Assembly (NCBI GenBank): GCA_018827845.1
Contig: JAHJXC010000030.1
Span: 1-10,338 of the forward strand
DNA: 10,338 bases
Source: Patescibacteria group bacterium
Lineage (GTDB): Bacteria; Patescibacteriota; Minisyncoccia; UBA9983
Reading direction: 5' to 3'
Shown here: piece by piece, positions 4,930 to 9,411 of the stretch
Layout: every line of letters begins with the position of its first letter
How positions within the stretch are numbered: position 1 is the stretch's first letter
Position numbers and translations under genes: made by a program
Notes under the pieces: generated by a model
What the model was told of the DNA's origin: nothing
What the model saw: only the letters and a program-made list of their open reading frames with translations
Databases searched by the model: none

Positions 4930-4968
4930 TTATCCACATTATCCACATAGTTATCCACAATTCACCAC
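4930..4968. promoter_or_regulatory. Direct-repeat operator in the mraZ leader: MraZ boxes and/or DnaA boxes
   Basis: Exact TTATCCACA occurs at 4930-4938, 4939-4947 and 4951-4959 (plus strand). In the direction of mraZ these read GTGGATAA, and a further GTGG lies at 4965-4968. The GTGG cores are spaced 9, 12 and 10 bases apart, close to one helical turn. MraZ operators in other bacteria are short GT-rich direct repeats about 10 bp apart just upstream of mraZ, so this fits autoregulation. The same nonamer is also the consensus DnaA box. Both readings remain open. Confidence 0.65.
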
Positions 4969-4977
4969 TTTATTAAC

Positions 4978-5006
4978 ACTATACACCACTTCCCTATATT
5001 TTCCAA
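4978..5006 (-). promoter_or_regulatory. Candidate promoter of the mraZ-ftsW operon
   Basis: Minus-strand TTGGAA (5001-5006, four of six consensus bases) and TATAGT (4978-4983, five of six) are 17 bases apart. The predicted start near 4971 would place the repeat boxes at 4930-4968 immediately downstream of it, where a bound protein could block initiation. The -35 overlaps the tail of the lysS terminator. Confidence 0.4.
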
Positions 5007-5034
5007 AACAAAAACTGTGGATAACTTCCACAGT
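5005..5034 (-). terminator. Intrinsic terminator of lysS containing a TTATCCACA box
   Basis: On the minus strand the stem ACTGTGG (5028-5034) and CCACAGT (5014-5020) encloses a seven-base loop and is followed by TTTTGTTTT (5005-5013). The hairpin lies 28 bases beyond the lysS stop. Loop and 3' arm together contain an exact TTATCCACA (5016-5024, minus strand), the fourth copy in this intergenic region. Confidence 0.65.
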
Positions 5035-5038
5035 CAAT

Positions 5039-5062: not shown

Positions 5063-6526
5063 TTATTTTGGTTTTAAAGTTGGAAAAAGTATTACTTCGC
5101 GGATGTTGTGGGTGTCTGTTAAAAGCATTATTAGCCGGTCTATGCCAATGCCCAGCCCGCTGGCTAAAGGCATGCCATATTCCATTGCCTCAAGATAATC
5201 CTCATCGCTCGGAGAAATCTCTTTTTCCCCTCTTTCTTTAGCTTTATCTTGCTCTACAAATCTCTCCTTTTGATCAATTGGATCATTGAGTTCGGAAAAG
5301 CCATTTACAACTTCCAGCCCCCCTATTATTAACTGAAACCTGTCAATTAAATTATTCTCCTTTGATTTTCTTTTGGCTAAAGGAGAAGTGCCAACAGGAT
5401 AATCAATAACAAAAGTCGGCTGGATTATTTTTGGCCGGCACAGTTTTTTAAAAAGATTGTCCATTATCTTTTCTTTTGTTTCAAAATCCCTTACATCTAT
5501 GCCAAATTGTTTTGCTTTTAAGGCTATATCTTCCCTGCTGGAATTTGCAGGGTCTAGAAGAAGGGCGTATTTTTTTAAGACATCATAATAACTAAGAATA
5601 TTAAACTTTTTTGACATTGAGATTTTGTTGCCATTAAATTCTATGTCATTTTTGCCTAAAATTTTCTTTGTAATTGCTTTTATGCCTTTTTCTATAAACT
5701 TCTGCAGATATTGAGCATCTCTGTATGCCTCATATACTTCTATCATTGTAAACTCCGGATTATGCGTGGCATCGATTCCTTCATTTCTGAAACTTCTGCC
5801 TATTTCATAAACTTTTGTTATTCCTCCGATTAACAACTCCTTTAGATAAAGCTCCGGCGCAATGCGCAGGTATAAATCAATATCAAGAGCATTGTGGTGA
5901 GTTGTAAATGGTTCTGCCAAGGCGCCTCCAGCCACTAGTTGCAATATTGGCGTCTCCACTTCCAAAAAACCTTCTTTGTCCAGAAAATTTCTTATCTCAG
6001 AAATTATTTTGGAACGCAGTAAAAATCTTTTTTTGACTTCCTTGTTCATTAGTAAATCCAAATAGCGCTTTCTGAAACGCTCCTCTGTATCTTGTAATCC
6101 ATACCACTGTGCTGGCAACGGTCTTAAACTTTTGGCTGACATTCTCCATTGGGAAACTTTAATAGTTTTTTCTTTTTTCTTTGTGACAAAAAAACTACCC
6201 TTGAGTTCTACAAAATCGCCCATGTCAACTGTTTCTCTAAAAAGAGAAAACTGCTCCTCACCTGCCTCATCTTTTTTTAGATACGCCTGCATTTGGCTGG
6301 AGCCGTCATTTATATCAAAAAAGATTGAACCGCCATGTTCTCTTATGGCCATTATTCTGCCAACCACATAGGAATGTTTTTTCTTTTTTGAAAGTTTGGA
6401 AAAATCCTTAAGGACCTCGGAAATCAAAAAATCACGGCTCACAGAAACCGGGTAAGGATCAACTCCTTTTTCTTTAAGAATCTCTAATTTTTTAATCCGT
6501 TCGTTGCGAATATCTTCAAGACTCAT
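5063..6526 (-). CDS. lysS: Lysyl-tRNA synthetase, class II
   Basis: A 487-residue cytosolic enzyme that charges tRNA-Lys. The N-terminal anticodon-binding OB-fold (about 52-130) includes VVGRIMAIREHGGSIFFDI (54-72). The class II catalytic core follows: motif 1 around RSKIISEIRNFLDKEGFLEV (171-190) with ETP (191-193), motif 2 with FRNEG (246-250) and HNPEFTMIEVYEAY (255-268), and motif 3 GLGIGIDRLIMLLTD (457-471). LVAGGALAEPFTTHHN (197-212) and YLRIAPELYLKELL (219-232) are also typical of LysRS. Length is normal for bacterial LysS. It has its own promoter, whose -10 box lies only seven bases from the ATG, so the message may be leaderless, and it ends at an intrinsic terminator, so it is probably not part of the dcw operon downstream. 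Confidence 0.97.
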   Translation of the reverse strand: MSLEDIRNERIKKLEILKEKGVDPYPVSVSRDFLISEVLKDFSKLSKKKKHSYVVGRIMAIREHGGSIFFDINDGSSQMQAYLKKDEAGEEQFSLFRETVDMGDFVELKGSFFVTKKKEKTIKVSQWRMSAKSLRPLPAQWYGLQDTEERFRKRYLDLLMNKEVKKRFLLRSKIISEIRNFLDKEGFLEVETPILQLVAGGALAEPFTTHHNALDIDLYLRIAPELYLKELLIGGITKVYEIGRSFRNEGIDATHNPEFTMIEVYEAYRDAQYLQKFIEKGIKAITKKILGKNDIEFNGNKISMSKKFNILSYYDVLKKYALLLDPANSSREDIALKAKQFGIDVRDFETKEKIMDNLFKKLCRPKIIQPTFVIDYPVGTSPLAKRKSKENNLIDRFQLIIGGLEVVNGFSELNDPIDQKERFVEQDKAKERGEKEISPSDEDYLEAMEYGMPLASGLGIGIDRLIMLLTDTHNIREVILFPTLKPK

Positions 6527-7037: not shown

Positions 7038-7628
7038 TTATTTAAGATTATAATATCTCCTCAAAAAATTCTCATCTTTCTCGTCTATTTCCTTTACTAC
7101 AAAATAATGAACAAATTTTCTTACGTCAAAAAATTCGCTTACAAAATCAACTTCATTCCGACAATCAAATGGACAAATAAAAACACTTTTTTGAAGAGGG
7201 TATATTTCCATTTCTTTTAATTTTTTAGTCAGTGCGTCCCTGCCCTTTTTATATCTTTCCGGAATATCAAAAATAATCATCCGCCAATACTCATCCCATT
7301 TTTTCGGCCTAGCAATAACTATCTCGTCAAATTTATATTTTAAAATTCTTTTCTTGCCCCTCTCAGTAATTTCCATAACCATGTCCTCGCCTTTTTCATA
7401 AATATCAATTAATTTCTGTTTCTCAAGATTCTGAAGAATGCGATTCATTTTATACCGTTCACGAGAAGTTTTTACTCCGAATAAATGAAAGACCTGCGGA
7501 AGATTCGGCAATGCGAAACTGGCAATAATTAATCCGCCAACTGCCAATCCTTTTAAAATCTCCTTTGCTAATTCTCCCTTGGAATAATTATCTCTGATAG
7601 ATTTTATTCCTTGCTTTTTCGTTTTCAT
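7038..7628 (-). CDS. PaaX-family-like regulator with Cas2-like C-terminal domain
   Basis: This encodes 196 residues. A basic N-terminus is followed by a hydrophobic stretch (about 25-47, ILKGLAVGGLIIASFALPNL). A winged-helix-like region (about 55-98) contains SRERYKMNRILQNLEKQKLI and a wing near ITERGKKRIL. The C-terminal domain (about 108-180) has WDEYWRMIIFDIPERYKKGR (111-130) and LQKSVFICPFD (145-155). This WxxxWRxxxFDIPE...R..L...L...LQ.SV...P pattern is the PaaX C-terminal domain, which shares the ferredoxin-like fold of Cas2; D121 is at the position of Cas2's conserved strand-1 Asp. No cas genes or CRISPR array are present, so a DNA-binding regulator is favoured over adaptation. It has no SD and a very short leader. 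A palindromic element overlaps its promoter, which suggests autoregulation. Confidence 0.75.
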   Translation of the reverse strand: MKTKKQGIKSIRDNYSKGELAKEILKGLAVGGLIIASFALPNLPQVFHLFGVKTSRERYKMNRILQNLEKQKLIDIYEKGEDMVMEITERGKKRILKYKFDEIVIARPKKWDEYWRMIIFDIPERYKKGRDALTKKLKEMEIYPLQKSVFICPFDCRNEVDFVSEFFDVRKFVHYFVVKEIDEKDENFLRRYYNLK

Positions 7629-7731: not shown

Positions 7732-9411
7732 CTATTCTAAATACTCCGGCGTGTAAATACTCATCAAATCTATGAGATGGCGCATTACAAAGGGGGCGCC
7801 GACGAGATTGCTATACGGCCCTCTTTCCATCACCACCGCAAAAGCATATTTCGGATTTTGGTACGGGAAAAACCCTATCACCCATGAATTCACATATTTT
7901 TTCGCTCCGCCAATTTCAGCAGTTCCTGTTTTTGCTGCAATAGCAACGCTCGGCACTGCCAAGGCGCTGGCAGTGCCTTCTATTACTGACATTCTCATTC
8001 CATCATGAATAACATCAAAATAATCCTTGGGGATATTAATTTCGCGGATCACACGTGAATTATTTTGCGAATCATCCAGAACAAGATGGGGCTGGATGAT
8101 TTTTCCTTTATTTGCCAGAGCTGAAACATAAACCAGCATTTCTATTGGAGTTATATGAAAATATCCCTGGCCAATACTAGCATTATAAGTGTCCCCTATT
8201 CTCCACATCGGATCTGACGGATCTGATTTTGCTTTTAATTCTGGGTTGGGCACAGTGCCTATTTCTTCGCCATCCAGATCTATTCCTGTTGCAGAATCAA
8301 AACCAAATATCTTTGTGTATTCTTCAATTTTGTTAATGCCCAAGCCTTTCTGTCCCTCAAATCCGCCCCCAATTTCATAAAAATAAACGTCTGAAGAAAC
8401 AGCAATAGCCCTTCTCATATCCACCCAGCCGTGGGCTTTCCAGTCCTTAAAAACACTGAACTTGCCTGGAAAATAAGGATTGGGAATGGAAATACTTCCT
8501 GTACTTAAAATCTGTTTTTCCGGCGTAATAATTCCTTCGTTCAAAGCAACAAGAGCAATAAGAGGTTTTATTATGGAGCCGGGAGCATAAAGGCCGGATG
8601 TGGCCCTGTTTAAAAACGGCTTGTTTTTATCATTAATAAATTCATTAATTTTTTCTATATCCTTTCCCTTGGAAATGATTTGCGAATTATATTCCGGATA
8701 ACTGGCCAAAGAAAGTATTTCTCCGTTATTAACATTCATTAACATTCCTGTTCCAGCCTGGAATCCTCTGTCTTGAGCAACTGATTTAATGATTTTAAAA
8801 AATTCTGACTGTATTTTTGAATCTATGGAAATATTTACATCTTTGCCATCCTGAGGCCATTGCTGAATGCTTTCAGAAATAACATTGTTTTGGGAATCAA
8901 CCTCAATAATTTTCATTCCTGGTGTGCCGAACAAAATATCCCCATAAACTTTTTCAATGCCTTGCTTGCCAATCATCGCCTCCATTAAAACTCCTTCTTT
9001 ACTTTTTAGATCTTCTTCTGACGGCAGGCCGATGTATCCTAAAACATGGCTGAAGCCATCAAGGTTTGTATAAACTCTTGAATCAAAGTCATTCCAGGCC
9101 AATTTTTCTCCATTTCTGTCATATATAATCCCTCTATTGGGAAGAATAAAAGTTTTGTTCAGACGGTTATTCTCGCTTCTTTGGGCATAAATTTCGCCGT
9201 CCAAAACCTGCAAAGAAAAAATTTTTGTTGCAAAAACCAGGGCAATAACCAGAAAGGCCACGGACAAAGCAACGAACGATTTTTTACTTATTGACTTCTC
9301 AATTCTGCCCTCCATCTGATAGGTGTCAAATTGAGGAAGGTTTTGGGAATCAAGAAAAATCTCATCCGGATAAATTTCTTCTTTCTTCTTTCTTCTTTTT
9401 CTTCTAAACAT
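7732..9411 (-). CDS. mrdA: Class B penicillin-binding protein PBP2 (elongation transpeptidase MrdA)
   Basis: A 559-residue D,D-transpeptidase for lateral-wall synthesis with RodA/MreCD. A highly basic cytoplasmic tail (FRRKRRKKK, 2-10) precedes one membrane segment (about 44-65), then the pedestal entry NRGIIYDRNGEKLAWN (92-107). Active-site motifs are S279-x-x-K282 (APGSIIKP), S339-S-D341 in SSDVYFYEIG, where SxD replaces SxN as is typical of PBP2, and K494-T-G-T497. SSDVYFY and the MreD-like neighbour identify PBP2 rather than FtsI. Unusually, only about five residues separate LAWN from SRVYTNLDGFSHVLGYIG (111-128); E. coli PBP2 has roughly 90 there, so much of the head region is absent. 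Its start overlaps the upstream gene by eight bases, without an SD. No rodA is seen here. Confidence 0.93.
   Translation of the reverse strand: MFRRKRRKKKEEIYPDEIFLDSQNLPQFDTYQMEGRIEKSISKKSFVALSVAFLVIALVFATKIFSLQVLDGEIYAQRSENNRLNKTFILPNRGIIYDRNGEKLAWNDFDSRVYTNLDGFSHVLGYIGLPSEEDLKSKEGVLMEAMIGKQGIEKVYGDILFGTPGMKIIEVDSQNNVISESIQQWPQDGKDVNISIDSKIQSEFFKIIKSVAQDRGFQAGTGMLMNVNNGEILSLASYPEYNSQIISKGKDIEKINEFINDKNKPFLNRATSGLYAPGSIIKPLIALVALNEGIITPEKQILSTGSISIPNPYFPGKFSVFKDWKAHGWVDMRRAIAVSSDVYFYEIGGGFEGQKGLGINKIEEYTKIFGFDSATGIDLDGEEIGTVPNPELKAKSDPSDPMWRIGDTYNASIGQGYFHITPIEMLVYVSALANKGKIIQPHLVLDDSQNNSRVIREINIPKDYFDVIHDGMRMSVIEGTASALAVPSVAIAAKTGTAEIGGAKKYVNSWVIGFFPYQNPKYAFAVVMERGPYSNLVGAPFVMRHLIDLMSIYTPEYLE

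Follow-up and report, generated by a model that had tools for sequence, protein, structure and literature searches.

A candidate composite MraZ/DnaA control region at the head of a Patescibacteria division operon, containing a nonamer found in other promoters of the class

The spacer between lysS and mraZ in a 10,338-nt stretch of a Patescibacteria genome (hereafter the window) raises the question of which protein or proteins read four exact copies of the nonamer TTATCCACA, three in tandem and one inverted, packed into 95 bases. A sequence-only reading of the window had pointed out this cluster and offered three alternatives: DnaA control of the division operon, a replication origin, or an MraZ operator converged on the same bases. 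The four copies lie exactly where that reading had placed them, and its remark that the window holds no others was borne out for exact copies (further exact copies = 0), the search adding a single copy with one mismatch at 8199. The nonamer is also, as had been said, the DnaA-box consensus, as given in excerpts of PMC11317965. What did not last is the framing of the three options as competitors, since the MraZ and DnaA options seem to hold together and the origin fails. We give a probability of about 0.5 to the reading that the spacer is a composite MraZ/DnaA control region acting on the division operon, whose upstream nonamer would be one case of a class-wide promoter module.

The features of the spacer are collected in Table 1. 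The mraZ product matches MraZ of the solved structures 1n0e (E 2.4e-23) and 9qlr (E 1e-22), and the distance between the mraZ start and the predicted promoter (TTGGAA-17-TATAGT) implies a leader of about 50 nt. Read toward mraZ, the repeat array advances in steps of 10, 11, 10, 12 and 9 bp (GTGG at 4986, 4965, 4955, 4943 and 4934; GTGT at 4976), in rough agreement with the spacing of about 10 bp claimed earlier. The three tandem nonamers contain the last three GTGG repeats, all inside the leader. Behind lysS, a stable hairpin of nine pairs (folding z -4.83) is followed by a T-run, as in an intrinsic terminator. The fourth nonamer copy, in a double role that the sequence-only reading had not described, is an arm of this hairpin and stands 32 bp before the -10 hexamer of mraZ. 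Elsewhere in the window, an ORF of 196 aa (7038-7628, minus strand) presumably resembles PaaX/Cas2-like regulators.

Table 1. Coordinates of the lysS–mraZ spacer and its flanking genes, numbered from the first base of the window
Feature	Position	Strand	Basis
mraZ, 144 aa	4487..4921	-	ORF and structure matches
Exact TTATCCACA with last GTGG repeat (CCAC 4934-4937); abuts next box	4930..4938	+	
Exact TTATCCACA (CCAC 4943-4946); next box 3 bp away	4939..4947	+	
Exact TTATCCACA (CCAC 4955-4958); AAGTGG repeat 10 bp away	4951..4959	+	
AAGTGG, first downstream MraZ-type repeat	4965..4970	-	
Promoter repeats GTGG 4986-4989 and GTGT 4976-4979, phased with the array and flanking or overlapping the -10	4976..4989	-	
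Putative -10 hexamer TATAGT of the mraZ promoter	4978..4983	-	Consensus scan; similar hexamers in relatives
Putative -35 hexamer TTGGAA, weak match, 17-bp spacer	5001..5006	-	Consensus scan
Intrinsic-terminator-like hairpin behind lysS, then T-run; 3' arm is the upstream nonamer	5013..5035	-	
Upstream nonamer (32 bp to the -10), oriented as TTATCCACA when read with transcription	5016..5024	-	
Upstream gene, 487 aa, named lysS in the sequence-only reading	5063..6526	-	ORF

To compare relatives, 93 genomes were searched, namely our own, 10 of its genus or family and others of its class. An MraZ match was found in 89 of them, our own included, and was absent in G061, G068, G070 and G077. In the DNA upstream of all 89 mraZ genes (for G005, a region of only 2 bp), a pair of GTGG repeats 9-13 bp apart occurs in 80 genomes and three or more repeats in 49; the nine regions missing a phased pair include the one of 2 bp. 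Control tetramers occur in two or more phased copies in 0 (CCAC), 0 (CACC), 7 (GGTG), 15 (TGGG), 6 (GGGT) and 8 (GTGT) of the 89, and TGTG, which overlaps the repeats, in 38. The array pattern GTGGN6GTGGN6-8GTGG gave 61 matches in 51 of the 93 genomes (reversed pattern, 7), and comparison of positions by reading placed 52 of these at mraZ and 9 elsewhere; our own genome has a single match, in the window. GTGGnnTAnnnT was found in 66 of the 89 upstream regions. The mraZ promoter carries direct repeats with a GTG/GTGG core, spaced by about 10 bp, and the MraZ gene lies next to them; the phased array over the -10 and leader is thus well supported as an MraZ-type operator, in favour of one of the options first proposed.

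The MraZ operator of E. coli is built of TGGG repeats. That of Mollicutes consists of direct repeats of AAAGTG[T/G], according to excerpts of PMC8475190. The array described here resembles both in that the mraZ promoter has direct repeats with a GTG core, spaced by about one helical turn, and resembles MraZ operators in occurring essentially once per genome; it differs from the two in that the distal repeats are mostly full TGTGGATAA, set at steps of 12 and 9 bp, and in that the nonamer also stands upstream of the promoter.

The sequence-only reading had held that DnaA would drop out if relatives kept only the GTGG spacing. Comparison of the mraZ upstream regions revealed that they keep the full nonamer, TGTGGATAA occurring in 60 of 88 with 0.44 expected from three relatives' stretches. 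The repeats are of two kinds. Among 81 chains, some of which (e.g. in G040, G047, G052, G074, G086 and G088) look like accidental pairs at a large distance from the start codon, the first repeat is mostly AAGTGG, with A before it in 60 and ATAA after it in 4. Repeats at the 12-bp step have a leading T in 31 of 33 cases and are followed by ATAA in 19, ATAG in 7 and ACAA in 4, and those at the 9-bp step have T before them in 13 of 14 and ATAA after them in 14 of 14. These distal repeats are mostly full TGTGGATAA, unlike the first, suggesting that the whole nonamer is read by something. Repeats at the 10-bp step are mixed (ATAA after 39 of 91), which makes the second repeat a hybrid and indicates that MraZ might read part of the tail. 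Since the 12- and 9-bp repeats lie on roughly the same helix face, an MraZ oligomer could cover them. Another sequence, GGGGATAA, is present in 19 of the 88 mraZ upstream regions, where 0.22 would be expected; its complement is present in none of them.

The upstream copy has its own pattern of conservation. Of the 69 mraZ promoters that were located (the other 20 of the 89 being left out), 33 have a nonamer, with one mismatch allowed, 26-36 bp from the -10; control windows gave 5, 2, 0 and 2. Of these 33 nonamers, 19 are forward at 30-35 bp and 14 reversed, 8 of them at 29 bp. The same arrangement is widespread away from mraZ: TTATCCACA-N15-45-TATAAT gave 311 matches in 77 of the 93 genomes (reversed pattern, 7), with a gap of 28-32 in 66 of the 150 matches listed, and the opposite nonamer orientation gave 192 (reversed pattern, 3), with a gap of 26-31 in 89 of the 150 listed. 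Position 5 is mostly C, the 311 matches comparing with 81 for A, G and T together; the reversed pattern yielded 19 for the latter, indicating that these variants are weakly enriched too.

To avoid choosing sites by their -10, we collected 75 nonamers irrespective of it: 32 from our own genome, 19 from the mraZ-less G068 and G070 and 24 from three relatives' stretches. TATAAT stands at a gap of 26-34 in 17 of the 75, and in 16 of 66 once mraZ sites are removed (own genome 8/28, mraZ-less genomes 5/19, relatives' stretches 3/19). Because a maximal-order Markov model is uninformative at these counts, permuted nonamers (n = 1,679) served as the control, which covers the three relatives' stretches. 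They have TATAAT at this gap in 0.84%, the value for TTATCCACA in the same stretches being 4/24, mraZ sites included. Five of the 1,679 reach the frequency of TTATCCACA (24 copies), so it is position, not number, that distinguishes TTATCCACA. In these stretches 20 of the 24 nonamers fall outside ORFs, such DNA making up 6-12% of the sequence; in our own genome (558,660 bp in 95 contigs), where TTATCCACA occurs 32 times and the reversed pattern twice, 14 of the 28 sites away from mraZ do so by a cruder ORF caller.

A survey of the phylum found the promoter pattern in 141 of 379 genomes, the table tallying to 22 of 32 in our own class and 119 of 347 in others, indicating that the promoter nonamer is stronger in the class yet not confined to it. 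A stricter pattern gave at least 118 matches in public genomes; among the 80 listed, 56 are by title Patescibacteria (Moran-, Nomura-, Harrison-, Taylor-, Magasanikbacteria and others) and 7 belong to other phyla. The upstream copy at mraZ is therefore best read as one case of a putative nonamer promoter module used at many genes of the class. Across 385 nonamer sites the flank showed a preference for G at -1 (239) and A at -2 (248), extending the motif to AGTTATCCACA.

Which protein reads the nonamer was addressed through the genomes without an MraZ match. G068 and G070 hold 13 and 6 nonamers (reversed pattern, 1), and the persistence of promoter nonamers in both makes MraZ an unlikely reader of them; as reader of the nonamer genome-wide it is disfavoured. 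G077, also mraZ-less, has one promoter match and G061 none. DnaA was matched in 91 of the 93 genomes, 87 over the family cut-off, and some of the others are fragments or weak. The motif [RK]DH[TS]T of the box-reading helix is present in the DnaA C-termini of 30 of 30 relatives, our own genome showing an N-terminal fragment only. The DnaA of one relative aligns closely to 8btg, which we take to be the B. subtilis protein.

At mraZ the nonamers match the TTATCCACA consensus and form a same-direction pair 3 bp apart (4939/4951), confined to the leader, the upstream copy being single. Excerpts of PMC11317965 report that the preferred target of E. coli DnaA is a pair of boxes in the same direction, spaced by 2 or 3 bp, that the protein binds 13 of 32 single consensus boxes, and that the whole E. 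coli genome contains 32 TTATCCACA in a compact DnaA regulon. The consensus and the 4939/4951 pair agree with these double boxes; unlike E. coli, our genome has 32 TTATCCACA in 0.56 Mb, mostly single and often at a set distance from a -10. Away from mraZ, a second box (at least 7 of 9 matching, at 2-3 bp spacing) lies 2-3 bp upstream in 8 of 325 nonamers (1.24 expected, P 5e-5), a count that leaves out 132 sites in mraZ loci, 13 near an MraZ-like start and 16 duplicates. Four of these eight are at dnaA loci, which had been deliberately sampled, and away from both mraZ and dnaA a DnaA-like partner accompanies 4 of about 310 nonamers, little above chance; the mean-match profile away from mraZ shows no peak at the double-box spacing. 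With mraZ loci included, 19 second boxes were counted at offsets -11/-12 in 385 sites. The fall of the excess to 8/325, half of it at dnaA loci, led us to lower the probability of the composite reading from about 0.55 to 0.5, and slightly that of the general role for DnaA considered below.

Within 900 bp of 30 dnaA genes we found TTATCCACA 12 times, TTATACACA 8 times and TTATTCACA 4 times, so that position 5 of the boxes near dnaA is C in 12, A in 8 and T in 4. At 31 dnaA loci (130.6 kb), TTATCCACA occurs 15 times, with 4.3 expected from the relatives' density or 7.5 from that of our own genome. Given the consensus, the 3-bp double box at this locus and the pairing of boxes at dnaA loci, we consider DnaA the best candidate and somewhat more probably than not the reader of the nonamer. 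The earlier proposal of DnaA action at the division operon thus gains indirect support, from the retention of the full nonamer and its use elsewhere as a positioned promoter element. In G021, G033, G057 and G077, a TTATCCACA with TATAAT behind it starts some 100-310 bp before the dnaA match, an arrangement that would suit autoregulation by DnaA.

A cluster of four DnaA boxes within 95 bp could also mark a replication origin, and the scan of our own genome that had been suggested did reveal the mraZ cluster as its densest. The sole other pair of TTATCCACA less than 200 bp apart lies on contig C95, beside a DnaA fragment matching the first 63 positions of the protein, so that dnaA has two boxes of its own on a separate contig. 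GC skew was taken from two relatives, our own genome being too fragmented, and no sign change was seen at mraZ in either. In G065, mraZ (60 kb) sits in a positive-skew stretch of the 400 kb covered, with sign changes inside a masked segment (80-140 kb) and around a positive one (310-340 kb); its dnaA, at position 551 of 837 kb, falls outside the part covered. In G039 the skew is negative throughout 200 kb. On these grounds the origin was rejected, with next to no probability left to it.

From the sites, their phasing, their conservation and their distance from the -10, we infer MraZ and DnaA as readers, together with the signs of regulation. An MraZ oligomer would bind the GTGG repeats over the -10 and leader, on about one helix face, and repress its own operon. 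DnaA would bind the full nonamers both upstream and in the leader: at the copy upstream of the -35 it would help RNA polymerase, and on the tandem leader copies, which include the pair spaced by 3 bp, it would block. The upstream nonamer would be part of a promoter module shared by many genes in this class (probably Paceibacteria). The MraZ-type operator and the terminator would be the ordinary part of such a region, and the DnaA-type boxes, interlocked with the operator and placed as in other promoters, the new one.

The composite reading has points against it: promoter nonamers mostly occur singly, although paired boxes are what E. coli DnaA prefers; C predominates at position 5 in promoters, while boxes near dnaA also have A and T; the upstream copy doubles as a terminator arm; and the mraZ-less G061 lacks a promoter match. 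The first two of these would suit another transcription factor that shares the DnaA consensus and acts as an activator just upstream of the -35, at mraZ together with MraZ. The scarcity of DnaA-like pairs away from mraZ and dnaA agrees with such a factor, as does the dominance of prepilins and MscS-like channels among downstream genes. We hold it to be rather unlikely, given that the nonamer is the exact DnaA consensus, that dnaA loci have paired boxes and an excess of nonamers, that nearly all the genomes have a DnaA match, and that lexA, recA, dnaA and ribonucleotide reductase are among the downstream genes.

A simpler account leaves DnaA out of mraZ altogether, with MraZ reading all repeats and the ATAA tail and leading T forming part of its box. 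The near-universal GTGG phasing at mraZ, the placement of the downstream repeats on roughly one helix face and the ATAA found after 39 of 91 repeats at the 10-bp step fit this well. It does not explain why the first repeat rarely has ATAA (4/81) and mostly has A before it, why the same nonamer is promoter-linked elsewhere and persists in two mraZ-less genomes, or why the upstream copy is in promoter position at 33 of 69 located mraZ promoters, and we regard it as unlikely. More doubtful still is the view that the inverted copy serves solely as the lysS terminator's 3' arm, with no regulatory role, and that the tandem three stand alone. The hairpin with its T-run and low z value is what this view predicts, yet the 33 mraZ promoters just cited carry an upstream nonamer, and L049, L055 and L061, where the terminator is separate or none such exists, keep it at the same distance from the -10 as judged by eye.

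The composite MraZ/DnaA reading has a precedent in the DnaA control of a division gene, C. crescentus ftsZ, described in excerpts of the review PMC8203912. In both, expression of division genes would be tied to the replication initiator; unlike that case, the site here is the head of the mraZ operon, interlocked with an MraZ operator. The word mraZ has a count of 0 in the main text of that review. No DnaA boxes in promoters of these bacteria were found in the open-access literature, as judged by listings, and in excerpts of PMC4736985 DnaA boxes are mentioned only near an origin. A composite region at mraZ would directly link replication and division, which bears on the timing of replication, division and surface structures in gene-poor, hard-to-grow bacteria, and a class-wide module would offer a testable map of a core regulon.

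A broader possibility, to which we give somewhat less than an even chance, is that in Paceibacteria, and probably in ABY1, DnaA serves as a general promoter activator through a single box at about -47, as a standard module. These cells have few regulators, and DnaA would then be wired to pili, MscS-like channels, DNA repair, DNA methylation, nucleotide reduction and the division operon. The genes concerned were sampled as the first ORFs after nonamer promoters, many of whose loci came from the stricter pattern, so that the sample is not random and includes some loci whose contig title was not checked. The family scan covered 134 of 160 ORFs, after removal of 4 mraZ, 5 whose contigs bear titles of other phyla, and a further 17 discarded manually on no fixed criterion (for the most part short or very long ORFs, or the second of a locus). 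It assigned 28 to a mechanosensitive-channel helix family, 19 to the prepilin motif, 5 to LexA, 4 to N6/N4 DNA methylases, 3 each to PilM and NYN, 2 each to ribonucleotide reductase, GreA and C-5 methylase, and 1 each to RecA and DnaA. No ORF followed 39 of 201 promoter-linked nonamer sites. The MscS-like membrane protein, often of about 228 aa, was with prepilins the commonest product in the sample (loci L301-L418 and L211-L239). Finally, fewer than 10 bases separate the -10 hexamer from the start of the ORF behind it in 22 of the 160 cases, suggesting leaderless or nearly leaderless mRNAs.
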